NCBI GenBank assembly: GCA_021810905.1
Contig: JAJZQH010000017.1
Span: 1-42,804 of the forward strand
Direction: 5' to 3'
DNA: 42,804 nucleotides
Source of the DNA: a bacterium
Lineage (GTDB): Bacteria; UBA10199; 2-02-FULL-44-16; JAAZCA01
Shown: in pieces, positions 2,961 to 26,570 of the stretch
How the letters are laid out: the number at the start of each line of letters is the position of its first letter
Position numbering within the stretch: position 1 is the stretch's first letter
The notes under the pieces: generated by a model
What the model saw: the letters and a program-made list of their open reading frames with translations, nothing else
What the model was told of the DNA's origin: nothing
The model's database searches: none
Position numbers and translations under genes: made by a program

Positions 2961-5900
2961 AATTGAAACGAAGGCTCCGGTCAAGGTTGAGGAACCAGAG
3001 GCGTTGCCGCCCATACGCTCCAGGTTCAGGCGCTTTGAACCGGCGACGGCAAGCGTGATGCCTGCTGAGGATCCAATAGCCGTTGTCGGGATGAGCGGTG
3101 TATTCCCTCAGTCAACTGATCTGGATGAATTCTGGCGCCATCTTGAGGCATGCGATGATCTGATAACCGAAGTGCCTCCGGATCGCTGGGATTGGAGGGA
3201 ATATTACGGCGATCCGCAGCTGGAGGGAAATCGCACTAAATCCAAGTGGGGCGGGTTCATGAAGGAAGTCGACAAGTTCGACGCTCCATTCTTCAAGATA
3301 TCTCCTCGCGAGGCCGAATTGATGGATCCGCAGCAAAGGATCTTTCTGGAAGTTGTTTGGAAGACCATTGAGAATGCCGGTTACTCCCCTTCGGCATTAT
3401 CCGGAAGCAGGACGGGTTTGTTTGTTGGCGTGGGTTCTGTTGATTACTATGAGTTGCTCAATGAATTGAAAATACCCATCGAGGCATATACTTCCACGGG
3501 GTGGACGCATTCAATATTAGCCAATCGCATATCATATCTTCTGAATCTGCGCGGTCCCAGCGAACCGATAGATACGGCATGCTCTAGCAGTTTGATAGCG
3601 ATACATAGAGCCGTCAGGGCCATACATGATGGCGACTGCGATATGGCGATAGCAGGCGGTGTGAGTGTCATGTTGACGCCGACATTGCATATTTCGTTCA
3701 GCAAGGCGGGAATGTTGAGTGATGACGGCAGATGCAAGACCTTTGATAAGAGCGCAAACGGATACGTGAGAGGTGAAGGAGCTGGAGCCGTCCTGCTCAA
3801 GCCATTATCCAGGGCGATCAGTGATGGAGATCATATCTACGGAATTATCCGCGCTACTGCGGAAAACCATGGGGGGCATGTCAGTTCGCTGACGGTGCCT
3901 AATCCAGTGGCCCAGGCTGAATTGCTCGTCGATGCGTATGGCCGCGCGGGAATAGAGCCGTGGAGAGTGGGATACGTCGAGTGCCATGGAACCGGTACGC
4001 CGCTTGGAGATCCTGTAGAGGTGAACGGTCTGAAGAAGGCGTTTGCGGATTTGTATGGCAAATCTCATATGGAATTCAGCGGAGAGGCGTATTGCGGGTT
4101 GGGAACAGTAAAGACGAATATAGGCCATTTGGAAACTGCGGCGGGTATAGCTGGCGTAGTAAAAGTATTGTTATCGCTGGAGCATAAAAAACTTCCGGGC
4201 GCCGTGCATTTTCACGAATTGAATCCGTACATAGAGCTCAAGAACAGCCCGTTTTATATCGTGGACAAAACGCAGGAATGGAAACCGTTGCAGGATAGAA
4301 ATGGTAAGGAGCTTCCCCGTGTTGCCGGCGTGAGCTCCTTCGGATTCGGCGGTGCAAACGCGCATGTGGTGATAGAGGAATATGATGATTCGAGGCGTAA
4401 GGCGCAGGGCATAAGGCATGCGGATGATGGGGAGAGACTTATCGTTTTATCGGCCTCGGATAAGGAGCGATTGCAGGATTATGTTAAGGAGATTGCGGCA
4501 TATCTGAATGACCTTTCCTCGTCAGAAGAGGAGGCCATCCGGCCGGCGCTTCGCGATATAGCTTATACGCTGCAGGTGGGCCGCGAGGCAATGGAGGAGC
4601 GCCTGGCTGTTGTAACGAAGAATATAGATGGGTTGAGAGAGGCATTGGCGAAATATCTTAAAGGGGAAAGCGTAGCGGAAGGCATGCATACCGGAAACAC
4701 GAGGGGCGCCAGGGATAAAAATGGCGTTATAGGAGATAGTGAGGATGAGCGTGCGTTCGTTCGCACTCTGTTCGAGAAGAGAAATTTAAACAAGATAGCC
4801 GCATTGTGGGTGAATGGTTCAAATATAGACTGGCAGCTCTTGTACGATGTCAATAAGGAAATGCTGCGTCGCATAGCGTTACCGACGTATCCTTTTGCGA
4901 AAAAACGATTCTGGCTAGGAGAGCGTGCTCAAAGTCATGCGTATGCAGTCGGAAACGATGCGTATAATCGTCATAAGGTAAAGGTCGTTTTAGATAAAGT
5001 CGGTGATCATGCCAGTGCCGATAATAGTTACCGTTTATCGAGCGAGACGATTGAGCCGGCCGTGCGATCAGCTCCTTCGGAACTTCATCAGGGAATAAAA
5101 TATAAGATGGAGAACGCTGGGCGGTCTGTAGCGAATGTTATTACAAAGGCTATTTCGCAAATACTGTACATCGATGCAGAAGAGATCGATGAAGAGACAA
5201 AATTTGTGGACTTGGGTTTGGACTCCATAACAGCAGTGGAAGCTGTAAAAAACATTAATGAAGCGTTGAGCGTCAATTTACAGGTTATCAAATTATATGA
5301 CTACAATACCATCAAGAGCCTGGCAAAGTATCTTATTTCAGAATACCAGACTTCTCTATCTACGGACATGATGAGGCATGTTGCATCTGTAAATGATCTC
5401 TCCGAAATTATAGATCTGGGAACGTCCATGCGACGAGTAGTACTTACCTCGGTTGGCAATAATGATAATGTTGAAACAGGCAACATTGATGTAAATGAAG
5501 TGTGCGCAGACGTTCAGAGAACTGGGATTTTCGAAGCGACTCAACATAGTGTTGATGGTGAGAGTATGAAACGATTTGCCGGGAAGGTGATCAGGGAAAC
5601 AATCTCTGGAGTTTTGTATGTCGAAGATGATGATGTTGATGATGAGACAAAGTTCGTTGATCTGGGTCTGGATTCAATTACTGCGGTGGAGGTGGTCAAG
5701 AGGATTAACGATGTTCTCAATATCAATTTGCAGGTGATTAAATTATATGACGTCAACAATATAACCGGTCTAATCGCATATCTTGTTGAGACATTCGCAG
5801 ATAAGATCAGCTGCTATTGTCGTGAATATGGCAATTTGCAAAGTGATGAGATTGAGAAAATGGCAGCCAGCGATGTTGTTAATAATCGTCAGGCGTTAAT

Positions 5901-8900
5901 TCATGAACATATAGCTGACAATGATATTTCCCCAGTATCAACAGTACTGACTCCTGCCTATCAAAGTCCAAGATCATCAAGAGACATTGCTGTAATAGGA
6001 ATCTCGGGAAGATTCCCTGGTGCAAATGATGTAGATAAGTTCTGGGATAATCTTGCTAACGGTGTTGATTCAATAACGGAAATACCGGCCGAGCGCTGGG
6101 ATTTCCATAAATATTATGATGCAGATCCATCAAGTGAACATAAAACGTATTCGAAGTGGGGTGGATTCGTTGATGATGTTGATAAATTTGATCCCTTGTT
6201 CTTTAGCATCTCTCCTGCAGAAGCGGAATATATGGATCCGCAGCAGCGTCTATTTTTGGAGGAAAGTTGGAAGGCGCTGGAAGATTCCGGATATAATGCA
6301 AAAAAAATGTCTGGTGTTAAATGTGGTGTCTTTGTTGGGGTCGGTCAGGGCGATTACGACTATAATCAGGCGGGATTTATAGATGGACTGTCATCCCGAA
6401 CATTATTGGGTATGAGTACATCGATACTGTCTGCCCGCATTTCATATATGTTGAATCTGAAGGGACCTAGCCTCGCTATTGAGACTGCGTGTTCAAGTTC
6501 ATTGGTTGCAATCCATGAGGCGTGTCAGAGTATAATTAATGGCGAGAGCGATCTTGCATTGGCAGGCGGAGTTTTCGTCATGTGTACGCCAAAAATGCAT
6601 ATTATGACTAGCAGTATGGGCATGTTGTCTCATGATGGAAGGTGCAAGACCTTTGATAATAGCGCAGACGGTTTTGTACCTGGTGAAGGTGTCGGTGTGA
6701 TTGTGCTGAAACCCCTGCTTAAGGCGATCGATGATTGCGATAACATCTACGGCGTCATCAAAGGGTCTTGTATTAATCAGGATGGAGCAACGAATGGCAT
6801 AACTGCACCCAGCGGTGAATCACAGACGTCGTTGGAGCTCGAAGTCTATAAGAAATATGAAATTAATCCAATGACCATTAGCTATGTAGAGGCACATGGA
6901 ACTGGGACTAAACTTGGGGACCCTCTGGAGGTGCAAGCAATAAATAGGGCTTTTAGCGAATATGTGGCTGAGAAACAGTATTGTGCAATAGGTTCCGTCA
7001 AGACAAATATAGGTCATTCGCTGACGGCAGCAGGAGTTGCTAGCGTAATCAAGGTCCTATTATGTTTGAAACATAAATCGTTGGTTCCCTCAATTAATTT
7101 TTTACATCCAAACGAACATATAACATTTCGTGATACGCCTTTTTATGTAAATACGGAGTTCAAGAAATGGGCCAATATCTATGGCGACCATCGCAGGGCT
7201 GCAATTAGTGCATTTGGATTCAGTGGAACGAACTGTCATATGGTTCTTGAGGAATATGTAGACGATAGAAAACGCGGCTCTGCTGCAAATCCGGGCCCCT
7301 TTATATTTACATTGTCTGCGAAAAATCAAAGCAGCCTGAGTGAGTACGTCAAAAAGACGCGCGAGCATATATTGTCGAAAGAGTTGCATCTTTCACTCGC
7401 TGATTTGGCATATACAATGCAAATTGGTAGAGAATCTATGGATGCACGTCTGGCTGTGGTGGTGAATGATCTCGGAGAGTTGAACAGCAATCTGGAGAAA
7501 TATCTTCGTGGTGAAAAGAATGTTGAGGGTTTGCATATAGGAAATGCGAAGGCCGTCGAGGACAGGAATGGAATAATAGGAGACAGCATTGAGGAGAAGG
7601 AATTTATACGGAATCTGTTTGATAAAAGAAATTACAACAAATTGGCCGCGCTATGGGCGGGTGGTTCAGAGATGTATTGGCAGATGCTCTATAGGGATAG
7701 TGAGAACTGTCCGCATCGAATATCATTGCCTACATATCCGTTCAAGCGTGAGCGGTATTGGATCCCCGAGAGTACTGGCGAGGCGACTGTCAGAGGAAGT
7801 CAGGGACGCCTTCATGAGCTGCTGGACAGCAACGAGTCCACGTTGGGGGAACAGCGGTATCGGAAGGTATTGAGCGGCAACGAGTATTATTTGCGCGATC
7901 ACGTTGTAGGCGGCACTAAAATATTGCCAGGCGTAGCGTATCTGGAGATGGCGCGGTTGGCGGGTGATCTTGCGGGCGAAGGTTCGAAGGTCAGTCGAAT
8001 AAGTGATGTAGTATGGCTGCAGCCGGTGCTGGTGGATGACGGAAAAACGGAAGTGTCCGTGACACTGTTTCCGGGCGAAGGTTTTGTCGAATACGAGGTG
8101 AGCAGTGGAGGCGAGCGCGCCGTCAATTCGCAGGGCAGGCTTGAGTATGGAGAAAGAGCAGAGGGATCGATCGATCGAATAGATATGGAGGCGGTACGAG
8201 CGCGGTGTACAGAGAGGATCGGCAAGGAGTCCTTATACCGAAGATTCGGAGAGATGGGTTTGAATTACGGGCTCAGCTTCCAGGCGATACAGGAGCTGAA
8301 CCATAACGACGAAGAAGTATTGGCGAAGCTTGAGTTGCCCGAATCGTTGAGGGACGGTTTTGGGGAATATGTGCTCCATCCATCGTTGATGGACGGCGCA
8401 CTGCAGTCGGTGGTGGGATTGATGGGCGATGCAGGCGAAGCGATATACGTGCCTTTTTCGCTTGGAGAAGTTGAGATAACCAAGCCGCTGGAGGAGAGGT
8501 GCTATGCGTACGTGAGAATAGCCGAAGGCAGCGAGAGAAATGCAAAGCAGTTTGATATTGCGATAGCAAATGAATCCGGAGACGTTCTGGTTCGGATTAA
8601 GGATTTTGCGGTGCGGCAGTACAGCCGTGAGAAGGTGAAGGCTGCGGAGGATACAGAGAGATTGGTGTATCTGCGAGAGGATTGGGCGGAGTCATCACTG
8701 ACATCCACGTCCGAGCCAATAGCAGGCACCGTATTGTTGATGAGCAGCAGCGAAGGCGTGATGGGGAGTATTCGAGGGCTGGTTGGCGATAGAGGGAACA
8801 TCATACAAGTCAAATACGGTAAAGGTTTCAAGGAAACCGGTGATGGAATATACGAAGTGAAGGCGGGAGATGAGGAGGATCATAGGCGGTTGGTCGAGAC

Positions 8901-11900
8901 ATTACACGGAAGGAATATCCATCCCGATAAGATCGTTTACGTATGGAAGACATCACGATTTGGAGAAGGTGAAAAGGATGTAGGGAAGAGTCTGGAGCGT
9001 GAGCTATATTCAATGCACAGCCTCACTCGTGCATTGATGGAGGGAAAGCCGAGGGAAGAGATAAAGTTTCTGTGCATGAACAGGTGTGAGGGATTGAATC
9101 CGCTGGCAAGCGCTTTGAGCGGTTATGCGCGTGGCGCCAATTTAGAGAATCCGAAGTTCAAATATAAAATCATATCAACGGATGCCGAAGTTGATGATGA
9201 TTATTTAGCCAAAAAAATGGGTCTGGAGTTCAGTAACTGGGGCGATGTTGGTGTGACAGAAATTCTGTATGAAGGGGGATTGCGATACCAGAGAAATCTG
9301 GAAGAGATGAACTTAAAGCCAGCTGATGAAGCCGGGGCGGGCCTTAAGGAAGGAGGAGTTTATGTGATCACAGGTGGTATGGGCGGGCTCGGATTGATGT
9401 TTGCCCGGCATTTGTCGCATCGGTACAAAGCCAGACTTATATTGAGCGGGCGGCGCGATCTTGATGGGAAGATAGAGAATGATTTGGCCGCGATAAACGG
9501 TTTGGGAGGCGAAGCCATATATGTGAGATGCGACATAACAAAGAGTGAGGAAGTTGGTGAGCTTCTTCGCAACGGTCGTGAGCGATACGGGAGAATAAAC
9601 GGAATAATCCATGCAGCAGGGGTATTGCATGATTCATTCATAACGAAGAAAACTCGCAAGGAGATGGAATCGGTAATAGGTCCGAAGGTATATGGTACGA
9701 TCAATCTGGACGCAGCTAGCCGCGGCGACGATCTCGATGTTTTCGTGCTATTTTCATCGTTGGCCGGAATTGTTGGGAATGTAGGGCAGACCGATTATGC
9801 GTATGGAAATCGGTTTATGGATAATTTCGCGGAGTGGCGAGAGCTGCTGCGCAAGGAAGGAAAGGTTCGCGGCAGGACCGTCTCCATCGACTGGCCGTTG
9901 TGGGAAGAGGGCGGGATGCATGTCGATGAGGAGAGTAAAAAGTGGCTGAAGGAGACGATGGGGATGATAGCGCTTCGTTCCGACGACGGAATTGCGGCGT
10001 TTGAGCGCGTATTGATGGGTGTAACGGGCCATGTGTCGGTATTCTTCGGTAACGCGCAAGGTATAGAAAAGCTGGTGCGAAAAATCGCGGTAGAGAGGGG
10101 AACGGCTAAAGAGCAGGCCCCGGAAGGAATGGCCAAGGGGATGAATGTCGAATTGCTCGGTAAAGTGCGCAAGGATACATTGAAACTGGTGTCCGAGATA
10201 TTGAAGGTGAAGGAGAACGACATTGATATAGAAGCCGACATGAGCGAGTACGGATTCGATTCAATAATGATCACGTCATTCGCCAATAAGCTCAACGGCA
10301 AATACGGGATCGAGTTGAGGCCAGCGGTATTTTTTGAGCATGGATCTATTGGCTCGCTAGTGGGTTATCTGATTGCCGAATACTCAGATAAGCTGATGGA
10401 TCATTATGAAATTGATCGAGTGAATATAATGGCGCCGCATGTGACGCCTCCAGAATCCGCGCAGGGGAAAATCGCGAAGGAGCAATTCAGGCGGAGTCGT
10501 TTTTTCAATGAACGTGTCTCTCCAGCGGCCGGCTCTGCAAATGAACCGGTGGCCGTTATAGGCATGAGCGGTGTGTTTCCACAGTCGTCTGATCTGGATG
10601 AATTCTGGCACCATTTGGAAAGGTGCGACGATTTGATAACCGAAATACCGCCCGATCGCTGGAACTGGAACGAATATTACGGCGATCAAGCGAAGGAAGA
10701 AAATAAGACAAAGGCCAAGTGGGGCGGGTTCATGAAAGAGGTGGACAAGTTTGACGCGACATTTTTCAATATCGCCCCTCGCGAAGCAGAGTTCATGGAC
10801 CCGCAGCAGAGGATCTTCCTGGAAGTCGTTTGGAAGTGCATAGAGGACGCCGGGTATCGGGCGAAATTATTATCCGGCACAAAGACGGGATTGTTCGTAG
10901 GAGTATCGTCCAGCGATTATAATGAAGTATTGCAGAGGGCGGGCATTAACATCAATGCGCACATGCCTACAGGGCTGGCGCATTCCGTTCTGGCAAATCG
11001 TATATCGTATCTGTTGAATTTACGGGGACCCAGCGAACCGATCGACACCGCGTGTTCCAGCAGTCTCATATCCATACATAGAGCGGTGCGCTCAATACAG
11101 GATGGCGACTGCGACATGGCTATCGCCGGCGGCGTCAATGTCATCTTGACGCCTATGCTGCACATAGCGTTCAGCAAGGCCGGTATGTTGAGCGAGGATG
11201 GTAGGTGCAAGACTTTTGATGCAAGCGCCAACGGTTACGTGCGTGGAGAGGGGGCCGGTGCAGTCCTTCTCAAGAAATTATCAAAGGCGATAAGCGACGG
11301 CGATCATATATACGGCGTAATTCGCGGAACGGCTGAGAATCACGGCGGCCATGTCAGCTCTTTGACCGTACCCAACCCCATCGCTCAGGCCGAATTGCTG
11401 GTGGATGCGTATGGTCGCGCAGGCATAGAGCCATGGCGTATTGGATATATCGAATGCCACGGGACTGGCACTTCATTGGGCGATCCAGTTGAGGTGAACG
11501 GTTTGAAGCGCGCGTTCGCAGAGATGTATCGCAAGATGGGCAAGGAGTTCAGCGGCGTTGCATATTGTGGATTGGGAACCGTGAAAACGAACATAGGACA
11601 TCTTGAGGCATCCGCCGGTATAGCAGGATTCATTAAGGCGTTGCTGTCGATGTGGCATGGGGAGCTGCCAGGGGTAGTACATTTCAAGGAATTGAACCCT
11701 CAGATCGAGATATCCGGGAGTCCTTTCTACATAGTCGATAAGTCGATGAAGTGGGAACGATTAAGGAATGCGAGCGGGAGGGAATTGCCGCGAGTACTGG
11801 GAGTGAGTTCATTCGGTTTTGGAGGCGCAAACGCGCACATTGTAGTGGAGGAATACTGGAACGAGAATGAGGCCCGGCAGCAGCTTGAGGGGCAACCTGA

Positions 11901-14900
11901 GATCGTGCTGTTATCGGCAAGAGACAAGGAGCGTCTGAAGGAATATGCGCGGGAATTGTTAGCGCATCTTGACTCACCAGAGGCAGGTGAACGGCGTCTC
12001 AATGAGAATAATCACGAACCTGTTTTAAGGGATATAGCATACACCCTGCAGGCAGGCCGAGAGGCGATGGATGAAAGGCTGGCAATTACAACTGGAAGCG
12101 TTGATGAGCTGAAGGAAAAGCTTCGTAAATATCTGGGCGGGGAAGAGTATCTTGACGGGCTGCATGTCGGAGATGTCAACGCCCTTAAAGATAAACGTGG
12201 AATCATTGGGAACGGAGAAGAAGACAGACATTACATACGTGAACTGTTTGAAAGACGAAATTTAGACAAGTTGGCAGGGCTGTGGGTGAACGGGGCGGAT
12301 ATCGATTGGGACTCATTGTATCGGGATCAGGCATCCAGGCCGCAGCGGGTATCGTTGCCCACGTATCCCTTCAAACGCGAGCGCTACTGGGCGCGAGATA
12401 ATATCGTGGGAAAATCAGAAGCAACAGCTGATGTACGGAAACAGCAGGTTGTTTCTTTAAAAACTCATGGAGAGGACCTCGGCAAGGCAGCTGAAGCAAG
12501 GAGGATAAGTTTAACTAAGCCAGCCGGTGCATACCCGCAGACGCATGAGGATACATATAAACCGGTGATCGCCGAGGCGGGCGGCGAAAGCTACGGTACT
12601 ATAGAATCAGTCGTGAGACGCGAATTGGCAGGCATCCTCTTTAGAGATGCCGAGAGTATCGATGATGACAAACCGTTCGCTGAGTACGGCATGGATTCAA
12701 TCATGGCGGTGGAGTTTTTAAATAAACTGAATGACATATTTCACACGAAGATCCCTGCAAACAAATTGTATGATTTTCACACGGTCGGTAAGATGGCGGC
12801 ATATCTTCATTCGCTGACGAAGGATATGAATGTAACGGAGTTGAAACAGGACGGTTTGATGCATGAAGAAGGAATAAACATTGACGATGCTGAAGCGCGT
12901 GACACGGCAATAGCCGTAATCGGCATGTCTGCGAGATTTCCTGGCGCGAGGAATGTAGATGCCTATTGGCAGAATCTGATGACGGGCAAGGACTCCGTGC
13001 GGGAAGTCCCGAAAGAACGCTGGGATCCGGCGCAATATTATGATTCAGACCCGAAGGCGCCCAATAAAACTATCAGCAAATGGGGCGGTTTTCTCGATGA
13101 CATAGATGAGTTTGATCCTCTTTTTTTCAGCATAGCTCCGTCAGACGCGGAACTGATGGACCCCCAGCAGCGTCTTTTTTTAGAGGAGGCTTACAGTGCG
13201 CTGGAGGATGCAGGTTATTCACGAAAAAAACTGAATAACGTCAAGTGTGGCGTGTACGTCGGCGTAATGAATAACGACTACATGTCTCTTCTTAAGAGAT
13301 ATATCGGGATTGAACAGCCTGTGGGTGAATTGCTCGGAAATTCTAATTCCATACTGGCTTCCAGGATAGCGTATTTTTTGAATCTAAAGGGACCTGCAGT
13401 TCCCGTTGATACTGCATGCTCATCATCGTTGCTTGCGATACATATGGCCTGCAGATCCCTGCTTGATGATGAGGCTGAGATGATGCTTGGCGGCGGTGTA
13501 ACTCTGTATATTACGGAAGAAACGTATATAATGATGAGCAAGGCGGGCATGCTGTCTCCGGTGGGCAGGTGCAAGACGTTTGACAACGAGGCTGATGGTT
13601 TTGTTCCGGGTGAAGGCGCAGGATTTGTTGTCTTGAAAAAATTATCCAACGCAATCAGGGATGGAGATCATATTTACGGTGTGATCAAGGGGTCCGGTAT
13701 TAATCAGGATGGAAAAACCAATGGCATTACCGCTCCAAGCGGTGAGGCGCAGAAGGAGTTGGAGCTCGAAGTATATAGAAGATACGGGATTAATCCGGAG
13801 ACTATAAGTTATGTTGAGGCGCATGGGACCGGCACCAAATTGGGCGACCCGATTGAAGTGGCGGCGTTGACCGAGGCGTTTCGAGAATACACCGATAAGA
13901 AACAATATTGTGCGATCGGTTCCGTGAAAACGAACGTCGGCCATACATCTGCAGCAGCAGGTGTTGCGGGTGTGATCAAAGTCCTGCTGAGCATGCAGCA
14001 TAAACTGATACCTCCATCGATCAATTATACGGAACCCAATGAGCACATAAATTTCAAGGACAGTCCTTTTTATGTAAACACAAGGCTCCAGAAATGGGAG
14101 CCTGCGTACGGGTCCTTGCGCCGCGCGGCGGTCAGCGCGTTTGGATTCAGCGGGACTAATGCGCATCTGGTTCTCGAAGAATATCCGAATATTGAGGAGA
14201 AAGCTGGGCTGACGGGAAAGTCTGGAGGCTCTTCGCTGATTATTTTGTCAGCGAGAAGCATGGATGGATTGAGTGATTATGTGAAGAGGATGGCGGACTA
14301 TATAGAGACAAAATGCGAGGGAGTCGCTGGTGAAGAATTGCATCCTGATCTGGAATCTATCGCTTACACATTACAGGTAGGCAGAGACGCAATGAGTGAA
14401 CGATTGGCGATTGTTGCGAATACGATCGATGAGTTGAAGTTAAAGCTGGTTAAATACCTGCAAGGCGACACGAATATAGAAGGGCTGCGCAGCAGTGCTG
14501 CTGATACTGTGAAGGCGAAACCGGCAATTCCTGGAAAAAGCGCGGAGGACAGGGAATATATTCGGCAGTTGTTTACAAATGGCAATCTGGACGAGTTGGC
14601 GGAATTATGGGTGAGCGGTTCCGATATCGACTGGGAGACGGTTTACAGGGATCGGACGGTAATGCCGCGGAAGATATCCCTGCCCACGTACCCTTTCAAG
14701 CGCGAGCGGTACTGGATTCAGGAGACGGCTGGAAAGGCCGTTGCTGGTGCATTTGCAAGACTGCATGAATTGCTGGACAGCAATGAATCAACGTTGAAAG
14801 GACCACGCTTTCGCAAGACATTGAACGGTGATGAATATTATCTGCGCGATCATGTAGTCGGCGGCTCCAGGGTGTTGCCGGGCGTAGTGTATCTGGAAAT

Positions 14901-17900
14901 GACGCGCGTTGCTGCCGACCTTGCAGGCGAAGGCTCCAGGGTAAAACGCATTAGGGATGTAATGTGGCGACAGCCGGTGCGAATTGATGACGATAAGATG
15001 GAAGTTTATGTGAGCCTGATTCCCGGTGATCAAAACGTTGTTTTTGAGGTGAGCAGCCGCAGGGGCGGCGCAGGAGAAAGGGTAATCAACTCGAAGGGCA
15101 TGATAGAGTATGGAGACTGTCGTGCCGCTGGTGGAGATCGTATCGATCTGGAAGCGATACGAGGCAGATGCGTGCAGAAAATGAGTTCCGAGCAGTGTTA
15201 TGGCATATTTAAAGATATCGGTTTGCTCTACGGACCCAGTTTTCAGTCGATACGCGAATTAAGGTTTTGTGATGAAGAGGCTTTGGGAGAACTTGTACTG
15301 CCCATGAGCATGAAACAGGGGTTTGGAAAATACGTATTACATCCGTCGCTCATGGATGGGGCTTTGCAGTCCGTGATGGGATTGATGGATGATACGACTG
15401 GCGGGACGTATGTACCATATTCATTGAGAGACCTTGAAATCATAAAACCGCTGGAAGAGAGGTGCTATTCGTATGTTAGAGCTGCCGAGGGTGGAACTGA
15501 AGCAGAGAAACGATTTGATATACTGATCGTAAATGAATCAGGGGAGATATTGATACGCATTAACGGATTTGTAACACGGTTATACAGGAAGAAAATGGCG
15601 GAGCGGGTAATTCCGGACAGCGAGGTCATTTGTCTCGGCGAGAAATGGGAGGAGACAGATGCGGCCGGCGATCGTGAACCGATAACGGGGAGTTTATTGC
15701 TTGTGGGGGGGGATGAAAAGGAGCGGGCGGTTTTGCAGGGAATGCTGGGCAATAGAGGACGAGTAATTCATGTGCGGTATGGAATAGAGTACAGAGAGTC
15801 GGAAGATTGGATATATGCAGTACGGCCTGGAGAAAACGACGATTATCGACGCATGATTGAGTCATTGAGTGCGAAGGATATTCGTCCTGAAAAAGTTGTC
15901 TATTTGTGGGGATCTGGAGATTTTATAAGTGAAATTAAAGAGGTGCAAGACGGTCTGGAACGAAGTTTTTATTCATTATGCGGATTGACGCGAGCGTTGA
16001 TGGAAAAGGGGCCCGGGGCGATTGCAAAGATCGCGTGTGTAAACATGGGAAGTGGTGTTGATCCGGTATTCAGCGGAATCCGCGGATTTGCGAGGAGCGT
16101 AAATTTAGAGAATGCCAGGTTCAAATTTAAAAACGTAACTTTGGGACCGGATGTCCTGTCTGAGGAAATGGCTAAAGTGGTTGAGGATGAGCTCGAGTTG
16201 TGGAGCGATGGATTCGCAGAAGTGAAATATGAAGGCGGTAAGAGATACGAACGAAGATATAAAGATGTGGGTACCGGTGAATCTGATGGTGGCGGTGCAA
16301 GTCTGAGGTGTGGTGGGGTTTACGTAATCACCGGGGGTATGGGCGGACTTGGAAAAATCTTCGCTGAATTTTTGTCGAAAGAATATCAGGCAAAACTTGT
16401 GTTGAGCGGAAGGCGGGAAATAGATGAGAAAGTGGAGATCGAGTTGGCGGAGATCGGTGCGCTGGGAGGCGAAGCTGTATATGTGAAGTGCGATGTAACA
16501 AAGCGCGATGAGGTGATGGAGTTATTGGATGCCGGACGTAAACGGTTTGGGAGAATAAATGGAATTATCCACGCGGCAGGGGTGCTGCGCGATGCATTCT
16601 TGATGAAAAAAACCCGTGAAGACATGGAATCGGTAATCGGCCCCAAGGTATATGGTGCAATCAATCTGGATGCGGAGAGCAGAGGAGACAGTCTGGATAT
16701 CTTCGTATTATTTTCATCGATAGCCGGCGTTATGGGTAACGTGGGACAGACCGATTATGCTTACGGGAATCGGTTCATGGATATTTTTGCCGAATGGCGA
16801 GAGGCGTTGCGATCTGATGGTAAGGCATCAGGCAGGACGATATCCATCGATTGGCCGCTATGGGAAGAAGGCGGGATGATGGTTGATGATGAGACGAAGA
16901 ACTGGATGAAGATCAAATTTGGTATGAATCTGCTTTCAACCGCCAATGGCGTTGATGCCTTCAAGAAAGCAATTTCTTGTCATGATTCACATATGGTCGT
17001 CCTCGAAGGGCAAGCGGAGAGGATAAAACAGCGGTTGGGTATTGGCAGATCAGTATTGCCGGGAAAGGCTGCGGAGGGTACGGGCGGGGCGAAGTCGGAC
17101 GTGGTTTCAGAAGATGGTCTGCTGGCGGGAATTGAAAAAGACCTTCTTGGACTGTTTGCGGAGTTGTTGAAAATGAATGTTGATGACCTGGATCCTGAAT
17201 CAGAACTGTCAAGGTATGGCATGGATTCGATAAAGATGATGCAGATATTAAATCGCGTGGATTCTCTGTACGGCGTAACGGTTGATCCTGGTTCCGCGGC
17301 GATGAAACCTACGATTCGACAACTTGCTGGATTCCTGGTCACTGAATGTCATGTGAAAGCGCTTGCGAATACCCGTGCGGGTGATGTCGGACAATTCCGT
17401 GATGTTTTGGAATTACGCAGCCTGAAAGATCCTGAGATTCATTCTCTCGGCCGATATGCAGAAGAAGAACAGATGTGGCGGAAGATGTTGCTGCTGGATG
17501 ATGGCGAAGCTGCAGACAACTCGCGCTTAAACGATTTCAGGGCAAGAAGGGGCTTTTTATTGCCGGTATTTCGTTCATTCTCAAGGGTGCTCTGGAGCCT
17601 TGATGTTGTGGGTGTGGAGAATCTTCCTGATGCGCCTTTTATTATGGCGCCAAATCATGCGAGCCATTTTGACGGGCTCTGGGTCATCAGCCAGTTAAGC
17701 AGTAAACTGAGGGCCGCCATCTTTGGCATCGGCAAAAAAGAACTGCTCGAAAAGCATGCCACGAAGTTTTTTGCTTCCATGGGCAATTTGATACCTATCG
17801 ACCGCACTGGTGATTTTATGCCTGCCCTTCGCGCCGGCGCTCAGGTGCTACGGAGCGGTAGAATCCTGATTCTGCATCCCGAAGGCACACGAACCTCTGA

Positions 17901-18207
17901 TGGAAACATGCTGCCGTTCAAGTCTGGCCTGGGTATACTTGCCATGGCGTTGCGCGTTCCCGTGGTTCCCATCGGCATCAGCGGTTCTTTTGAAGTCTTT
18001 CCGAATAAAATCCTTACGCCCAGGTTGATCAGGTGGTCTAAGCTGTCGCGGTATCATATTAACGTAAGGCTGGGAAAACCCGTCAGGATTGAGGACGAAA
18101 TAAGAAGTGGTGCGTTGGATGCTAATTCCGCCACAATTGCAGAGGACTTTACAAAACTCCTTCACGACAGGGTCGCGGAGTTGCTCCAATGCGCGTCCCC
18201 ATCTTGA
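1..18207 (+). CDS. Trans-AT modular polyketide synthase with C-terminal PlsC acyltransferase domain (5' end outside window)
   Basis: The frame is open from base 1, and the first residues match the post-ketosynthase linkers found later in the protein, so the gene starts upstream and the TTG at 19 is not a real start. Order seen: (KS linker)-DH-KR-ACP, KS-ACP-ACP, KS-DH-KR-ACP, KS-ACP, KS-DH-KR-ACP, PlsC. All four KS have the DTACSSS/ETACSSS cysteine and both histidine motifs (HGTGT, N-I/V-GH). All three DH have HxxxGxxxxP plus the DGALQ aspartate. All three KR have TGGxGGLG and the S/Y catalytic pair. There is no GHSxG acyltransferase, so malonyl units must be loaded in trans. Each KS is followed by a linker ending in YPF..+R(Y/F)W, typical of trans-AT enzymes. 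There is no thioesterase and no ER. The 3' end overlaps psd by 59 bp, tail to tail. GC is lower than in the flanks. The assembly-line class is certain; the product is unknown. Confidence 0.95.
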   Translation, partial: DELRDGLAKYLKGENVAEGLHSGSAKAVRDKNGVIGDSEDEREFIRTLFEKRNLNKIAALWVNGSNIDWQLLYGDGKEALHRVPLPAYPFKRERYWIPEGAGEVSVKGAQSRLHEMLDSNESTLGEQRYRKVLTGNEYYLRDHVVSGTKTLPGVVYLEMARLAGDLAGEGSKINRISDVVWLQPVQVDGGRAEVYVNLHPDEGFVGYEVSSGAGNGGDRIVNSQGRLEYGMRDDAKTERVDIEAIRARCTENKDKESVYRLSRSMELEYGTTFQAISGLIYNDKEVLAKLELPETLKGGFDEYVLHPSLVDGALQSTLSLMGAAGDNRIYVPFSLGKVEIVRPLVDHCYAYARSTDGGVGGMREFDIDIADEAGNVLVGILKFTVREYSKEMVKPAKKSETLNYLSESWKESLLDSVHEAMSGSVMLIGGSEELRSTLREKIGCGCRMLQIKNGGGYEKLEDGLYEVKAGVKADYQSVVEDLDKEGTPPDKIVYLYEGIELEREDGDVGAALAGYIYSVFGMTRALMMAKAGGDVKMLCAYHGNGVNPYVGGLSGFGRSAHLENSKFNYKIVSVGANASNAELAGRLVDEFESWDVKDVEIKYDRDKRYKRILEKVDLEKENGGAASLKQGGVYLITGGIGGLGAIFARHLSATYKTKLVLSDVRELDARGEALLSEVSGLGGEVLYVRCDVTKLDDVMELVKRAKERFGRIDGIIHAAGAIRDSFVMKKKREEMELVLNAKIYGAINLDAATAGEDLEFFVTFASIAGVMGNIGQSDYAYANRFLDNFAEWREGLRDRKERQGRTLSIDWPLWAEGGMAVGEETKKWLKQMLGIVVLPTSDGIMAFEAAVRGARSQVCVVYGDVSKMQTLVGTASEEKAAAGNNISEASVREMGALLFDKIRLDMVKIVAGIIKVDESDVDIEAEMSEYGFDSINITDLTNKINMRYGINLTPAVFFEHGSIASMVQYLLKEQRAVLSDYYKLDAGIETKAPVKVEEPEALPPIRSRFRRFEPATASVMPAEDPIAVVGMSGVFPQSTDLDEFWRHLEACDDLITEVPPDRWDWREYYGDPQLEGNRTKSKWGGFMKEVDKFDAPFFKISPREAELMDPQQRIFLEVVWKTIENAGYSPSALSGSRTGLFVGVGSVDYYELLNELKIPIEAYTSTGWTHSILANRISYLLNLRGPSEPIDTACSSSLIAIHRAVRAIHDGDCDMAIAGGVSVMLTPTLHISFSKAGMLSDDGRCKTFDKSANGYVRGEGAGAVLLKPLSRAISDGDHIYGIIRATAENHGGHVSSLTVPNPVAQAELLVDAYGRAGIEPWRVGYVECHGTGTPLGDPVEVNGLKKAFADLYGKSHMEFSGEAYCGLGTVKTNIGHLETAAGIAGVVKVLLSLEHKKLPGAVHFHELNPYIELKNSPFYIVDKTQEWKPLQDRNGKELPRVAGVSSFGFGGANAHVVIEEYDDSRRKAQGIRHADDGERLIVLSASDKERLQDYVKEIAAYLNDLSSSEEEAIRPALRDIAYTLQVGREAMEERLAVVTKNIDGLREALAKYLKGESVAEGMHTGNTRGARDKNGVIGDSEDERAFVRTLFEKRNLNKIAALWVNGSNIDWQLLYDVNKEMLRRIALPTYPFAKKRFWLGERAQSHAYAVGNDAYNRHKVKVVLDKVGDHASADNSYRLSSETIEPAVRSAPSELHQGIKYKMENAGRSVANVITKAISQILYIDAEEIDEETKFVDLGLDSITAVEAVKNINEALSVNLQVIKLYDYNTIKSLAKYLISEYQTSLSTDMMRHVASVNDLSEIIDLGTSMRRVVLTSVGNNDNVETGNIDVNEVCADVQRTGIFEATQHSVDGESMKRFAGKVIRETISGVLYVEDDDVDDETKFVDLGLDSITAVEVVKRINDVLNINLQVIKLYDVNNITGLIAYLVETFADKISCYCREYGNLQSDEIEKMAASDVVNNRQALIHEHIADNDISPVSTVLTPAYQSPRSSRDIAVIGISGRFPGANDVDKFWDNLANGVDSITEIPAERWDFHKYYDADPSSEHKTYSKWGGFVDDVDKFDPLFFSISPAEAEYMDPQQRLFLEESWKALEDSGYNAKKMSGVKCGVFVGVGQGDYDYNQAGFIDGLSSRTLLGMSTSILSARISYMLNLKGPSLAIETACSSSLVAIHEACQSIINGESDLALAGGVFVMCTPKMHIMTSSMGMLSHDGRCKTFDNSADGFVPGEGVGVIVLKPLLKAIDDCDNIYGVIKGSCINQDGATNGITAPSGESQTSLELEVYKKYEINPMTISYVEAHGTGTKLGDPLEVQAINRAFSEYVAEKQYCAIGSVKTNIGHSLTAAGVASVIKVLLCLKHKSLVPSINFLHPNEHITFRDTPFYVNTEFKKWANIYGDHRRAAISAFGFSGTNCHMVLEEYVDDRKRGSAANPGPFIFTLSAKNQSSLSEYVKKTREHILSKELHLSLADLAYTMQIGRESMDARLAVVVNDLGELNSNLEKYLRGEKNVEGLHIGNAKAVEDRNGIIGDSIEEKEFIRNLFDKRNYNKLAALWAGGSEMYWQMLYRDSENCPHRISLPTYPFKRERYWIPESTGEATVRGSQGRLHELLDSNESTLGEQRYRKVLSGNEYYLRDHVVGGTKILPGVAYLEMARLAGDLAGEGSKVSRISDVVWLQPVLVDDGKTEVSVTLFPGEGFVEYEVSSGGERAVNSQGRLEYGERAEGSIDRIDMEAVRARCTERIGKESLYRRFGEMGLNYGLSFQAIQELNHNDEEVLAKLELPESLRDGFGEYVLHPSLMDGALQSVVGLMGDAGEAIYVPFSLGEVEITKPLEERCYAYVRIAEGSERNAKQFDIAIANESGDVLVRIKDFAVRQYSREKVKAAEDTERLVYLREDWAESSLTSTSEPIAGTVLLMSSSEGVMGSIRGLVGDRGNIIQVKYGKGFKETGDGIYEVKAGDEEDHRRLVETLHGRNIHPDKIVYVWKTSRFGEGEKDVGKSLERELYSMHSLTRALMEGKPREEIKFLCMNRCEGLNPLASALSGYARGANLENPKFKYKIISTDAEVDDDYLAKKMGLEFSNWGDVGVTEILYEGGLRYQRNLEEMNLKPADEAGAGLKEGGVYVITGGMGGLGLMFARHLSHRYKARLILSGRRDLDGKIENDLAAINGLGGEAIYVRCDITKSEEVGELLRNGRERYGRINGIIHAAGVLHDSFITKKTRKEMESVIGPKVYGTINLDAASRGDDLDVFVLFSSLAGIVGNVGQTDYAYGNRFMDNFAEWRELLRKEGKVRGRTVSIDWPLWEEGGMHVDEESKKWLKETMGMIALRSDDGIAAFERVLMGVTGHVSVFFGNAQGIEKLVRKIAVERGTAKEQAPEGMAKGMNVELLGKVRKDTLKLVSEILKVKENDIDIEADMSEYGFDSIMITSFANKLNGKYGIELRPAVFFEHGSIGSLVGYLIAEYSDKLMDHYEIDRVNIMAPHVTPPESAQGKIAKEQFRRSRFFNERVSPAAGSANEPVAVIGMSGVFPQSSDLDEFWHHLERCDDLITEIPPDRWNWNEYYGDQAKEENKTKAKWGGFMKEVDKFDATFFNIAPREAEFMDPQQRIFLEVVWKCIEDAGYRAKLLSGTKTGLFVGVSSSDYNEVLQRAGININAHMPTGLAHSVLANRISYLLNLRGPSEPIDTACSSSLISIHRAVRSIQDGDCDMAIAGGVNVILTPMLHIAFSKAGMLSEDGRCKTFDASANGYVRGEGAGAVLLKKLSKAISDGDHIYGVIRGTAENHGGHVSSLTVPNPIAQAELLVDAYGRAGIEPWRIGYIECHGTGTSLGDPVEVNGLKRAFAEMYRKMGKEFSGVAYCGLGTVKTNIGHLEASAGIAGFIKALLSMWHGELPGVVHFKELNPQIEISGSPFYIVDKSMKWERLRNASGRELPRVLGVSSFGFGGANAHIVVEEYWNENEARQQLEGQPEIVLLSARDKERLKEYARELLAHLDSPEAGERRLNENNHEPVLRDIAYTLQAGREAMDERLAITTGSVDELKEKLRKYLGGEEYLDGLHVGDVNALKDKRGIIGNGEEDRHYIRELFERRNLDKLAGLWVNGADIDWDSLYRDQASRPQRVSLPTYPFKRERYWARDNIVGKSEATADVRKQQVVSLKTHGEDLGKAAEARRISLTKPAGAYPQTHEDTYKPVIAEAGGESYGTIESVVRRELAGILFRDAESIDDDKPFAEYGMDSIMAVEFLNKLNDIFHTKIPANKLYDFHTVGKMAAYLHSLTKDMNVTELKQDGLMHEEGINIDDAEARDTAIAVIGMSARFPGARNVDAYWQNLMTGKDSVREVPKERWDPAQYYDSDPKAPNKTISKWGGFLDDIDEFDPLFFSIAPSDAELMDPQQRLFLEEAYSALEDAGYSRKKLNNVKCGVYVGVMNNDYMSLLKRYIGIEQPVGELLGNSNSILASRIAYFLNLKGPAVPVDTACSSSLLAIHMACRSLLDDEAEMMLGGGVTLYITEETYIMMSKAGMLSPVGRCKTFDNEADGFVPGEGAGFVVLKKLSNAIRDGDHIYGVIKGSGINQDGKTNGITAPSGEAQKELELEVYRRYGINPETISYVEAHGTGTKLGDPIEVAALTEAFREYTDKKQYCAIGSVKTNVGHTSAAAGVAGVIKVLLSMQHKLIPPSINYTEPNEHINFKDSPFYVNTRLQKWEPAYGSLRRAAVSAFGFSGTNAHLVLEEYPNIEEKAGLTGKSGGSSLIILSARSMDGLSDYVKRMADYIETKCEGVAGEELHPDLESIAYTLQVGRDAMSERLAIVANTIDELKLKLVKYLQGDTNIEGLRSSAADTVKAKPAIPGKSAEDREYIRQLFTNGNLDELAELWVSGSDIDWETVYRDRTVMPRKISLPTYPFKRERYWIQETAGKAVAGAFARLHELLDSNESTLKGPRFRKTLNGDEYYLRDHVVGGSRVLPGVVYLEMTRVAADLAGEGSRVKRIRDVMWRQPVRIDDDKMEVYVSLIPGDQNVVFEVSSRRGGAGERVINSKGMIEYGDCRAAGGDRIDLEAIRGRCVQKMSSEQCYGIFKDIGLLYGPSFQSIRELRFCDEEALGELVLPMSMKQGFGKYVLHPSLMDGALQSVMGLMDDTTGGTYVPYSLRDLEIIKPLEERCYSYVRAAEGGTEAEKRFDILIVNESGEILIRINGFVTRLYRKKMAERVIPDSEVICLGEKWEETDAAGDREPITGSLLLVGGDEKERAVLQGMLGNRGRVIHVRYGIEYRESEDWIYAVRPGENDDYRRMIESLSAKDIRPEKVVYLWGSGDFISEIKEVQDGLERSFYSLCGLTRALMEKGPGAIAKIACVNMGSGVDPVFSGIRGFARSVNLENARFKFKNVTLGPDVLSEEMAKVVEDELELWSDGFAEVKYEGGKRYERRYKDVGTGESDGGGASLRCGGVYVITGGMGGLGKIFAEFLSKEYQAKLVLSGRREIDEKVEIELAEIGALGGEAVYVKCDVTKRDEVMELLDAGRKRFGRINGIIHAAGVLRDAFLMKKTREDMESVIGPKVYGAINLDAESRGDSLDIFVLFSSIAGVMGNVGQTDYAYGNRFMDIFAEWREALRSDGKASGRTISIDWPLWEEGGMMVDDETKNWMKIKFGMNLLSTANGVDAFKKAISCHDSHMVVLEGQAERIKQRLGIGRSVLPGKAAEGTGGAKSDVVSEDGLLAGIEKDLLGLFAELLKMNVDDLDPESELSRYGMDSIKMMQILNRVDSLYGVTVDPGSAAMKPTIRQLAGFLVTECHVKALANTRAGDVGQFRDVLELRSLKDPEIHSLGRYAEEEQMWRKMLLLDDGEAADNSRLNDFRARRGFLLPVFRSFSRVLWSLDVVGVENLPDAPFIMAPNHASHFDGLWVISQLSSKLRAAIFGIGKKELLEKHATKFFASMGNLIPIDRTGDFMPALRAGAQVLRSGRILILHPEGTRTSDGNMLPFKSGLGILAMALRVPVVPIGISGSFEVFPNKILTPRLIRWSKLSRYHINVRLGKPVRIEDEIRSGALDANSATIAEDFTKLLHDRVAELLQCASPS
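3067..5800 (+). other. PKS module: KS-ACP-ACP (tandem carriers)
   Basis: KS covers about 3067-4385, with Cys at 3580-3582, His (HGTGT) at 3985 and His (NIGH) at 4126. A linker ending in YPF..KRFW follows. Two similar carrier proteins come next, about 5100-5345 (Ser at 5224) and 5560-5800 (Ser at 5674), both with LGLDSITAVE. No reductive domain is present, so the beta-keto group is kept, processed by a neighbouring or trans enzyme, or beta-branched. Tandem ACPs are common at beta-branching modules of trans-AT enzymes, but the tryptophan often seen after the Ser in such carriers is absent here. The KS belongs to the same subgroup as the one at 10.5 kb. Confidence 0.85.
5980..10385 (+). other. 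PKS module: KS-DH-KR-ACP
   Basis: KS covers about 5980-7258 (ETACSSS, Cys at 6490-6492). The DH covers about 7800-8630 with catalytic His at 7900 and an intact HPSLMDGALQ motif. The KR ends near 10075 and has TGGMGGLG and a QTDYAYGNRF tyrosine motif. The ACP Ser is at 10261-10263 (GFDSI). The DH and KR are very close to those of the first module (for example, the DSNESTLGEQRYRKVL stretch is identical), pointing to recent internal duplication. The KS belongs to the other subgroup (NQDG..NGITAPSG), shared with the KS at 12.9 kb. Confidence 0.88.
10545..12830 (+). other. PKS module: KS-ACP
   Basis: KS covers about 10545-11855, with Cys at 11053-11055 and intact HGTGT and NIGHLE histidines. Its sequence (AENHGGHVSSLTVPNP) groups it with the KS at 3.1 kb. 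The linker ends in YPFKRERYW near 12390. One ACP follows, with Ser at 12697-12699 (YGMDSI). There is no modifying domain, so the beta-keto group is expected to persist unless a domain of the next module or a trans enzyme acts on it. Both histidines are kept, so nothing in the sequence marks this KS as non-elongating. Confidence 0.85.
12904..17350 (+). other. Terminal PKS module: KS-DH-KR-ACP
   Basis: KS covers about 12904-14180 (Cys at 13417-13419). The DH covers about 14750-15580 with catalytic His at 14851. The KR ends near 17030 with TGGMGGLG and QTDYAYGNRF. The ACP covers about 17120-17345 with Ser at 17227-17229 (YGMDSI). With DH and KR but no ER, the chain handed to the C-terminal domain should be a 2,3-enoyl thioester, unless an enoyl reductase acts in trans. 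Confidence 0.87.
17560..18190 (+). other. PlsC/AGPAT-type acyltransferase domain at the PKS C-terminus
   Basis: All four glycerolipid acyltransferase blocks can be read. Block I is the catalytic NHASHFD (H-x4-D) at 17653-17673. Block II is GNLIPIDR near 17780. Block III is PEGTRT at 17878-17895. Block IV is VPVVPIGI near 17960. The domain is about 200 residues, the normal size, and is in frame with the ACP through a charged linker of about 70 residues (17350-17560). Family members move an acyl group from ACP or CoA to the hydroxyl of glycerol 3-phosphate or lysophosphatidate. Here it occupies the position of a releasing thioesterase, so it probably off-loads the polyketide onto a lipid acceptor. 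The acceptor is inferred from the neighbouring genes, not proven. Confidence 0.9.
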
Positions 18208-19063
18208 TCGTCGTTTCCAGGCCCTTGCGTCTGTTGGCTATCAGGTCTTCGTCGAAGACGACTTTGTCTTTTTCCAGTACGATCACTATGGATGAACCGC
18301 CGATTTCGAAATAGCCCTGCTCCTGGCCGCGCACTACCGGTCCGGCATTATAAGTCTCAACAATTTTTCCCACTATTGTAGCCCCGATTGGGATGATGAG
18401 CATCCTGCCGAAGCCATCTGAATTGAACTCGACGATATCGCGCTGATTGCGGCAGAAGATCGCGGGGTCGTACTCAAGGGCCTGGCTGCTGACAGAGTCC
18501 AGATGGCCGGGAATGCGCCTCGGCGCGTCAGCATTTCCTCCGTCCGGAAAATGAAATCGATGATAATCTGCGGGCGCCAGACGAAAGATCGCAATGCTGC
18601 CGCCTTCATATCTCTTTGCCTTTGTATCATCCTCGATCAATTCGCCCAGAGTATAGCTGCCTCCCTTGATGAAAAGACGTGTCCCCTGCAAGGCGGGCGT
18701 AATCGTCATGGAACAGTCGGCAGGCGATATCAGCAGAGACGGGTCCGTCTGAACGGGTCTGGCATTGGCCTTCAATCTGCGGGTAAAGACTTCATTGCAC
18801 GATGCGTAATCCCCTAGCGGTTTTTCAGCTTCGCACATATCGATTCTGAATTGTTTTACGAATTTTTCCAGCTTCCGAGTGCCGACCTTGCGGCTGAACC
18901 ACCACCCGTAGATCTTGCTGATCAGGTGCCTGCGCACCAGCCTGCGCATAAGCTGCGAGCCGAATTCATCGCCGTAGAAGTATTGCAACAATCTGGTATC
19001 ATGCCGCTGCTCAGTAACTACAGCACCGGTCTCTCGATTGACGTATTGAACTATGGATGACAT
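18149..19063 (-). CDS. psd: Phosphatidylserine decarboxylase proenzyme
   Basis: Converts phosphatidylserine to phosphatidylethanolamine at the inner membrane using a self-made pyruvoyl group. The protein is 304 residues. The catalytic Asp (SPADCS, residue 116), His (DYHRFHFP, residue 168) and the self-cleavage motif near residues 255-258 are visible. The motif is GGSS instead of the usual LGST or GGST, with Ser257 the expected pyruvoyl precursor. The frame is open further upstream, but those extra 46 residues are encoded by the palindromic repeats at 19090-19196. The ATG at 19063 has a GGAG about 11 nt ahead and begins the conserved YVNRETG region, so it is preferred. The gene lies downstream of pssA on the same strand, and its 3' end overlaps the PKS gene by 59 bp. 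Confidence 0.93.
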   Translation of the reverse strand: MSSIVQYVNRETGAVVTEQRHDTRLLQYFYGDEFGSQLMRRLVRRHLISKIYGWWFSRKVGTRKLEKFVKQFRIDMCEAEKPLGDYASCNEVFTRRLKANARPVQTDPSLLISPADCSMTITPALQGTRLFIKGGSYTLGELIEDDTKAKRYEGGSIAIFRLAPADYHRFHFPDGGNADAPRRIPGHLDSVSSQALEYDPAIFCRNQRDIVEFNSDGFGRMLIIPIGATIVGKIVETYNAGPVVRGQEQGYFEIGGSSIVIVLEKDKVVFDEDLIANRRKGLETTIKMGTRIGATPRPCREGVL

Positions 19064-19214: not shown

Positions 19215-19841
19215 TCACCAGAGCTTGAAGTCAATCGCGCAGAGCACGTAATAGATGAATATTATCGGAAATACGATGAACAACACCCATTTTTCGAATG
19301 CCGCTCCCTTTCGTATCGGAACCGCGCTCACCATGAGCGCGCTCAGGATGACTGCATAGATGGCAAGCGCAAGGGATTGTACCGTCGTATCGAATTCACG
19401 GACAAAGGCCCAGATGAAAAAGAGAATGCCCGCTGTATAGGGTACCGGCAGTCCCACGAAATACTTCTTCCCTTCGCGCTCGATGAGTCCTACATATGAA
19501 TAGCGCGCCAGTCTCAACACGGCTGCAAATGTGATCAGCAGGGCAAAGGGTATCATCCACGATTTGTTCGTGACTGAATAAATGAAAAAAGCAGGTGCAG
19601 CGCCGAACGCAATGGCGTCCGAAAGATTGTCCAGCTCCGCTCCGAATTCACTTACTATATTGAGTCTTCGTGCGACGAGGCCATCGACGCGATCGCACCA
19701 TATGCAGAGATAAAGAAAGACGAGCGATAATTCCGGCCTTCCGCGCATGACTGCAAACATCGATGCCAGGGCAAGTCCCAGGCCGGCCAGTGTGACGATG
19801 CCGGCGGGATTCAGCAGTCGAAATACGCTCGTCTCTTTCAT
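19215..19841 (-). CDS. pssA: CDP-diacylglycerol--serine O-phosphatidyltransferase
   Basis: Joins serine to CDP-diacylglycerol to make phosphatidylserine, the substrate of the downstream psd. The CDP-alcohol phosphotransferase signature D-x2-D-G-x2-A-R-x8-G-x3-D-x3-D is complete (DRVDGLVAR then G, D and D). The 208-residue protein has about six hydrophobic segments, as expected for the integral membrane (Bacillus-type) enzyme rather than the peripheral E. coli form. The ATG is preceded by GGGGGA at good spacing. A 151-bp gap containing palindromes separates it from psd. pssA next to psd is a common bacterial arrangement, so the pair could be the housekeeping copy. Confidence 0.93.
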   Translation of the reverse strand: MKETSVFRLLNPAGIVTLAGLGLALASMFAVMRGRPELSLVFLYLCIWCDRVDGLVARRLNIVSEFGAELDNLSDAIAFGAAPAFFIYSVTNKSWMIPFALLITFAAVLRLARYSYVGLIEREGKKYFVGLPVPYTAGILFFIWAFVREFDTTVQSLALAIYAVILSALMVSAVPIRKGAAFEKWVLFIVFPIIFIYYVLCAIDFKLW

Positions 19842-19947: not shown

Positions 19948-20868
19948 ATGGAACTCCATCCTCTCATGATCCGTGCAGCAGCACTTGTGGGGGCGATCTA
20001 CGGCGCCTTTCTCGTCATTTTTTTCCTGGGCTTCGTCGTCGGCCGTCGCGGACCTGACTGGGCCAGGATATTTTCGATCAGCTTCATCGTGATCATTCTT
20101 ATTGCCGTGCTGGCGCTGCCTCCACTGGCGCTCACGATCTTCGTGGCCGTGCTCGCCTTTCTCGGCGTCCGGGAGATCTGGTACGCCTCCGGATTCAAAA
20201 ACGTGGCCTACGTTCATCCTGTTTTCTATGCCTTCACGGCGATCGTATCGGTATTGATTCCTTTCCTGCTGCAGTTCCGTCCGTCGTGGTTTCACCCTTT
20301 CGCAATCCTCGTTCTGGCAGGACTCTTCAGCATCCCCGTCTTTCTCAGGGATGTGCACCTCGCCTTTGATCGCATCGCCCGCTCCATGGCCTGCATTATA
20401 TTGAGCATCCTTTTCTCCCACCTGGTCCTGTTGCGCGCCCTTCCGGCAGGGCTGGCCCTCTGCGTCACGGTAATTTTTCTCACCAATCTTGCCGATACGT
20501 CCGGCTATTTTTTCGGAAAACTCCTGAGAGGGCGGCGAAAGATGATCGAGGCCGTGAGCCCTGGAAAGACGCTGGCGGGATGTCTCTCTTCCATTCCCGC
20601 AACGCTTCTCTTGAGCCTGCTCTTCCGCTGGCAGCTCTTTCCCTCCGTGCCGGTCTGGTACGTGCTGCTGATGGCGCTGGTCATTAACGCCGGCGCGCAG
20701 ATCGGAGATCTGATATTTTCCGTGTTTAAACGCGATGTAGGCATCAAGGACTACAGCCAGCTTATTCCGGGACATGGCGGAATCCTTGACCGGTTCGACA
20801 GCCTCGTCGCCACGGCGCCGCTGGTCTATTGTTTTGTCACGATTCTGCCGTGGCCTGTCGCAGCGTGA
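19948..20868 (+). CDS. cdsA: Phosphatidate cytidylyltransferase (CDP-diacylglycerol synthase)
   Basis: Activates phosphatidate with CTP to CDP-diacylglycerol, the substrate of PssA. The 306-residue protein has about eight hydrophobic segments and the full C-terminal family signature S-x-x-K-R-x4-K-D...PGHGG-x-x-D-R-x-D near residues 255-282. The ATG has GGGGG about 8 nt upstream. It is divergent from pssA, so with psd the three genes cover phosphatidate to phosphatidylethanolamine. In many genomes cdsA sits with uppS and dxr. Its place here may mean a dedicated or extra copy, which cannot be settled from this window. The 3' end overlaps the convergent transporter gene by 43 bp. Confidence 0.93.
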   Translation: MELHPLMIRAAALVGAIYGAFLVIFFLGFVVGRRGPDWARIFSISFIVIILIAVLALPPLALTIFVAVLAFLGVREIWYASGFKNVAYVHPVFYAFTAIVSVLIPFLLQFRPSWFHPFAILVLAGLFSIPVFLRDVHLAFDRIARSMACIILSILFSHLVLLRALPAGLALCVTVIFLTNLADTSGYFFGKLLRGRRKMIEAVSPGKTLAGCLSSIPATLLLSLLFRWQLFPSVPVWYVLLMALVINAGAQIGDLIFSVFKRDVGIKDYSQLIPGHGGILDRFDSLVATAPLVYCFVTILPWPVAA

Positions 20869-26564: not shown

Positions 26565-26570
26565 AGTTTC

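Follow-up and report, generated by a model that had tools for sequence, protein, structure and literature searches.

The locus described here raises the question of how a modular polyketide synthase (PKS) that carries a glycerolipid acyltransferase (PlsC) domain at its C-terminal end releases its chain. Chain release from PKSs usually occurs by hydrolysis, cyclisation or reduction. The analysed stretch of DNA (the window) covers positions 1 to 42,804 of contig C8. It belongs to the genome of an uncultured bacterium, which amounts to 2.98 Mb on 21 contigs and is 99.5% complete by markers. We consider it likely that the chain on the last ACP is released by the PlsC domain onto a glycerophospholipid precursor, giving a polyketide-tailed phospholipid.

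Modular organization and trans-AT character of the PKS

Frame 1 of the window runs without interruption from base 1 to the stop codon at 18205-18207. As the window starts where contig C8 starts, the KS of the first module and all upstream sequence are missing from the ORF. The features of the PKS part are as follows.

1..18207, + strand: 5'-truncated trans-AT PKS-PlsC ORF of 6068 aa, with open frame, Pfam domains and intact active-site motifs
3070..3816, + strand: N-terminal half of the first KS in the window (PF00109), with Cys in DTACSSSL followed by HGTGT and NIGH
5224..5676, + strand: tandem ACPs of the KS-ACP-ACP module, Ser codons at 5224 and 5674 (motif check)
12907..14028, + strand: N- and C-terminal domains of the last KS (Pfam), with all three catalytic residues
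14764..15591, + strand: DH of the last module (Pfam), with DHVVGGSRVLP and HPSLMDGALQ
16315..16869, + strand: KR of the last module (Pfam), with active Ser and Tyr and a B-type motif D

Pfam scan of the ORF gave the module order (KS missing)-DH-KR-ACP / KS-ACP-ACP / KS-DH-KR-ACP / KS-ACP / KS-DH-KR-ACP-PlsC, with 4 KS and 6 ACPs in total. The motif check identified the catalytic Cys-His-His in all four KS, HxxxGxxxxP and D-x3-Q in all three DH, and the NADPH, Ser and Tyr motifs in all three KR. HMG-CoA synthase, which would serve beta-branching at the tandem ACPs, was not found in the genome.

The ORF thus has several KS modules without an integrated AT, as in modular trans-AT PKSs. No AT domain is present in any module seen (PF00698 is absent from the ORF), and RhiE-type KS linkers were detected by the Pfam scan. 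At the end of contig C9 of the same genome, a PksD-like acyl hydrolase and a HetI/Sfp-like PPTase adjoin a PKS start, so that an acyl hydrolase and an Sfp-type PPTase are situated near PKS genes. These results support the trans-AT assignment made in the initial annotation, and we infer that contigs C9 and C8 are part of one cluster. The PksD-like protein falls in the acyl hydrolase clade (E 1.2e-90 to 8AVZ) and shows GSSM where GHSL is expected, a replacement typical of acyl hydrolases (PMC11775670). Because of this replacement, the protein, which is the sole PF00698 match of the assembly, is probably an acyl hydrolase rather than a malonyl-AT. A malonyl-AT was not found in the assembly, in which the cluster is interrupted by contig ends; it may be encoded in a portion that is lacking here.

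On contigs C9 and C3 the assembly stops within the first part of a KS, and the two ends are exactly identical over 127 bases. Such an end is what k-mer assembly leaves when it breaks in a repeat; at least two PKS genes therefore open with the same KS start.

L034:1-510 (C9): PKS start at contig end, protein beginning MGGxLGKxxRKxxK
L035:19500-19934 (C3): PKS start at contig end, protein beginning MGGxLGKxxRKxxK

This short basic N-terminus might form a membrane-binding helix. Contig C9 also encodes a biotin ligase, a BioY-like protein and an acetyl-CoA carboxylase of 1875 aa. A phosphoglycerate-mutase-like metalloenzyme of 299 aa (L034:1509-2408), with a family match in its C-terminal part only, lies between the acyl hydrolase and the PPTase.

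The terminal ACP-PlsC fusion and its relatives

The 3' end of the ORF is organized as follows.

17128..17343, + strand: last ACP, Ser codon 17227-17229 (DSI), pLDDT of about 86-94 in the model blocks
17344..17583, + strand: ACP-PlsC linker, partly disordered, pLDDT below 50 at didomain residues 90-100
17584..18204, + strand: PlsC/LPLAT domain with H-x4-D, IPIDR, PEGTR and VPIGI blocks

The reading that the last ACP continues in frame into a complete PlsC domain was confirmed by the open frame, by the PF01553 (Acyltransferase) match at 17602-17982 and by the location of all four blocks (NHASHFD at 17653-17673, GNLIPIDR at 17782-17805, HPEGTRT at 17875-17895 and VPIGISG at 17965-17985). The PF01553 match scores 78.8 bits against a cut-off of 23, far above chance. 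The absence of a thioesterase, also noted initially, holds for the part of the line present on the contig, whose start truncates the ORF. The last ACP is closest to the ACPs which end the other DH-KR modules of the ORF (34% and 27% identity).

The didomain was modelled from a 42-row alignment with a pLDDT of 87.2 and a pTM of 0.84. Its fold search returned Thermotoga maritima PlsC (5KYM) first. Further acyltransferases of the glycerolipid and LPLAT-fold kinds followed, including PatA and the lipid A enzymes, and carrier proteins came after these. The same PlsC is the best solved-structure match by sequence (E 2.5e-12), while the ACP part matched two carrier proteins. The H-x4-D and PEGTR blocks together with the PlsC fold place the domain in the PlsC/LPLAT family. 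Among curated models, TIGR00530 (AGP_acyltrn) matched with 71.1 bits, under its cut-off of 102.95, and the acyl-[ACP]-phospholipid O-acyltransferase (Aas) model with 65 bits, also under cut-off. Aas of E. coli acylates lysophospholipid. As the curated names divide between AGP acyltransferase and Aas, both under cut-off, the predicted acceptor is either LPA or a lysophospholipid.

In a tree of PlsC domains, the window domain and a stand-alone ACP-PlsC protein from genome G027 form a pair (99/85), the gene of which adjoins an AMP-ligase gene. The wider clade, with moderate support (80/92), contains AMP-ligase-ACP-PlsC proteins of Aquificota and Nitrospirota. In these proteins the carrier beside PlsC is presumably loaded by the ligase; by analogy, the assembly line would take the place of the AMP ligase in the window protein. 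In a plausible history, the last PKS module acquired a PlsC of the carrier-adjacent kind by fusion. As read from sequence among loci L061-L075, L079, L119 and L120, the AMP-ligase-ACP-PlsC proteins of Aquificota and Nitrospirota have about 820-930 aa, and SDR-AMP-ligase-ACP-PlsC proteins of about 1400-2100 aa occur in Myxococcota, Acidobacteriota and others. Both kinds apparently form a family of acyl-carrier-loading phospholipid acyltransferases.

Phospholipid genes and acyl-chain metabolism of the host

Three phospholipid genes are situated beside the PKS.

18149..19063, - strand: psd, phosphatidylserine decarboxylase (TIGR00163 121 bits, above cut-off; PF02666)
19215..19841, - strand: pssA, PS synthase-like CDP-alcohol phosphatidyltransferase (PF01066 57.5 bits; TIGR00473 90.9 bits vs cut-off 107)
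19948..20868, + strand: cdsA, phosphatidate cytidylyltransferase (PF01148 175 bits; NF008635 101 bits)

The psd gene is convergent with the PKS ORF and overlaps its end, and PssA has the signature DG..AR...G...D...D. Together PlsC, CdsA, PS synthase and PS decarboxylase would constitute an unbroken path from LPA over PA, CDP-DAG and PS to PE. A reverse ORF of 281 aa opposite cdsA (19930-20775) matched no family and was not retained as a gene. The window genes that were scanned yielded no glycosyltransferase. Positions 25281-33135 hold, in a row, the genes of a sensor kinase, three NtrC-type regulators, one STAS protein and a 452-aa regulator-like protein.

At E 1e-10, psd was found in two of 45 genomes (the host and 44 others of its class), the second being a weak match in G037, and the PKS is likewise almost missing from the 44 relatives. 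GC3 is 0.52 in the PKS, 0.60-0.61 in pssA and psd and 0.70 in cdsA; most other window genes have about 0.69-0.76 and a symporter gene 0.65. The rarity of psd and the low GC3 of psd, pssA and PKS suit a joint acquisition. By composition, psd and pssA appear to have come in together with the PKS, or in a similar manner, next to a resident cdsA of host-like composition. Elsewhere the host genome encodes a PlsB-like protein and at least one other PlsC-like protein.

Within the genome, clear KS domains occur solely in this PKS and in the fragments at the C9 and C3 contig ends. The remaining weak KS match was found to be a thiolase and not a KS. Two relatives of the same class, G001 and G028, possess a fungal-type FAS I adjoining the same large acetyl-CoA carboxylase. 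This synthase combines SAT, Fas1 helical, MaoC, AT, ACP, KR and KS in one chain and was located as follows.

L050:2071-17465 (G001): fungal-type FAS I
L056 (G028): fungal-type FAS I
L051 (G025): fungal-type FAS I

Other genomes of the class have KS matches in frames of 3800-6450 aa, and G016 contains a modular cis-AT PKS frame of 4810 aa starting with an AMP-binding domain along with a PUFA-synthase-like pair (L053, L058). In G002-G008, which belong to the same family and order as the host, the KS matches are weak and cover a short thiolase-type stretch, and the large carboxylase is absent; these organisms may import fatty acids. Since its only clear KS domains are those of the PKS, the host has no obvious user of the carboxylase other than the PKS. 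One could suppose that the PKS is the cell's own acyl-chain synthase in place of a type II FAS or fungal-type FAS I, and that a line of fixed length, fed by a carboxylase of the FAS I-associated type, puts a lipid tail in PA and then PE. We regard this proposal as rather improbable. From the part seen, the PKS is not likely to be a source of bulk membrane fatty acid because it has no ER domain and contains unreduced modules.

Proposed chain release and comparison with known systems

The transfer reaction, its acceptor and its end product are envisaged as follows. The final module (KS-DH-KR-ACP) would load the last ACP with an acyl chain which is probably 2,3-unsaturated. The fused PlsC would esterify a hydroxyl group of a glycerophospholipid precursor with this chain. 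The likeliest precursor is 1-acyl-glycerol 3-phosphate, which the PlsB-like host protein could provide, or else a lysophospholipid. Release and lipid assembly would thereby be a single step yielding phosphatidic acid with a polyketide tail, and CdsA, PS synthase and PS decarboxylase would convert it to a polyketide-bearing phosphatidylethanolamine. Direct release as a lipid ester had been proposed initially; the proposal is now backed by the psd, pssA and cdsA neighbours and by the ACP-PlsC ancestry, and the release step and acceptor keep their inferred status. Against it, the gene is truncated and no malonyl-AT was found, the wider PlsC clade has moderate support, psd and pssA are convergent and share no operon with the PKS, and a single metagenome-type assembly is the only one in which the fusion was observed.

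An ester natural product instead of a phospholipid would arise if the PlsC domain esterified the polyketide to some other alcohol, such as a sugar, a glycolipid or a second metabolite. Acylation of such other alcohols is a reaction of LPLAT-fold enzymes, for example PatA. The fold matches here include PatA as well as lipid A acyltransferases, and with the TIGR00530 and Aas-type matches under their cut-offs the family does not fix the acceptor. PlsC nevertheless ranked first by both sequence and fold, and the adjacent genes are psd, pssA and cdsA with no glycosyltransferase among the scanned genes of the window, so this outcome appears unlikely. Slightly less probable still is that the domain releases no polyketide and draws its acyl groups from scavenged fatty acids, as ordinary acyl-ACP or acyl-CoA, for lipid synthesis or for attachment of the PKS to the membrane. 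LPLAT enzymes are membrane-associated, and with no other clear KS in the genome the membrane acyl chains may be imported; yet the genome already encodes other enzymes of the PlsC and PlsB kinds, and transfer in cis is indicated by the placement of PlsC immediately after the last ACP, the visible part of the line containing no further release domain.

The fusion could also stem from an assembly or sequencing error, or the domain could be inactive. The single assembly, with contigs that break inside PKS repeats, would allow for this. We hold it to be very improbable, as the frame is open across ACP, linker and PlsC, the ORF has no internal repeat of at least 40 bases, ACP-PlsC fusions recur in other genomes and all motifs are intact.

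Release onto a glycerophospholipid precursor may be compared with several known systems. The AGPAT domains of myxobacterial PUFA synthases, which the initial annotation gave as precedent, are valid as such and too narrow, since aryl polyene clusters and a trans-AT PKS with a DHAP-using terminal domain also belong here. The PUFA synthase Pfa3 has a C-terminal AGPAT domain which presumably puts the finished chain on LPA (PMC6731297), and both systems are thus PKS-like megasynthases with a 1-acylglycerol-3-phosphate acyltransferase-type domain. The Pfa3 system is iterative and cis-AT, with tandem ACPs in another subunit and a PUFA product, whereas the window protein is modular, has no AT in the part seen and carries PlsC directly behind the ACP of its last module. 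Its KS-DH-KR-ACP modules with PS-DH domains also differ from the PUFA synthase layout (PfaA/Pfa2-like KS-AT-ACPs-KR; Pfa3-like KS-CLF-FabA-type DH). The gladiostatin PKS is likewise a modular trans-AT PKS with a terminal non-thioesterase domain, an AfsA-like (PBS) domain which releases the chain onto DHAP, in vitro with an ACP-PBS didomain (PMC7756379). A three-carbon phosphate acceptor is thus shown for gladiostatin and predicted for the window protein. There, the AfsA family forms a butenolide from 3-keto thioesters, while the C-terminal domain of the window ORF is PF01553 and not AfsA, with a phospholipid ester as predicted product.

Aryl polyene clusters encode a discrete lysophospholipid acyltransferase, ApeD (PMC8253772), and here too an LPLAT is proposed to attach a polyketide-type chain to a lipid of the membrane; those enzymes are unfused and accompanied by thioesterase, glycosyl/acyltransferase and transport genes, unlike the fused PlsC of the window. 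T. maritima PlsC is similarly free-standing and monofunctional. The closest relatives of the window PlsC are Aas-type acyl-ACP synthetase/phospholipid O-acyltransferases, including the AMP-ligase-ACP-PlsC proteins, in which PlsC lies beside a carrier or ligase. Their acyl group would derive from free fatty acid via the AMP ligase, that of the window protein from the PKS, and no PF00501 is present in the ORF.

The initial annotation had suggested looking for further proteins with KS and LPLAT domains. No other megasynthase with KS and PlsC came up in the 80 best loci from a pattern-limited scan of 84,980 species genomes, among 385 genomes, among the matches listed for 179 genomes of another phylum (probably Myxococcota) or among the best plasmid matches. 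A frame of 1875 aa with a PlsC match in G018 was considered as a relative and is not a PKS as read from its sequence. A literature search, which was incomplete, found no description of a trans-AT PKS with PlsC at its end.

If release onto a glycerophospholipid precursor is true, a modular line with a terminal PlsC would directly link the programmable synthesis of a chain with the assembly of phospholipids. It would also predict a class of polyketide-tailed membrane lipids which extract-based screens would miss. The ACP-PlsC didomain is small and can be tested in vitro, and it could perhaps be reused for designer phospholipids.
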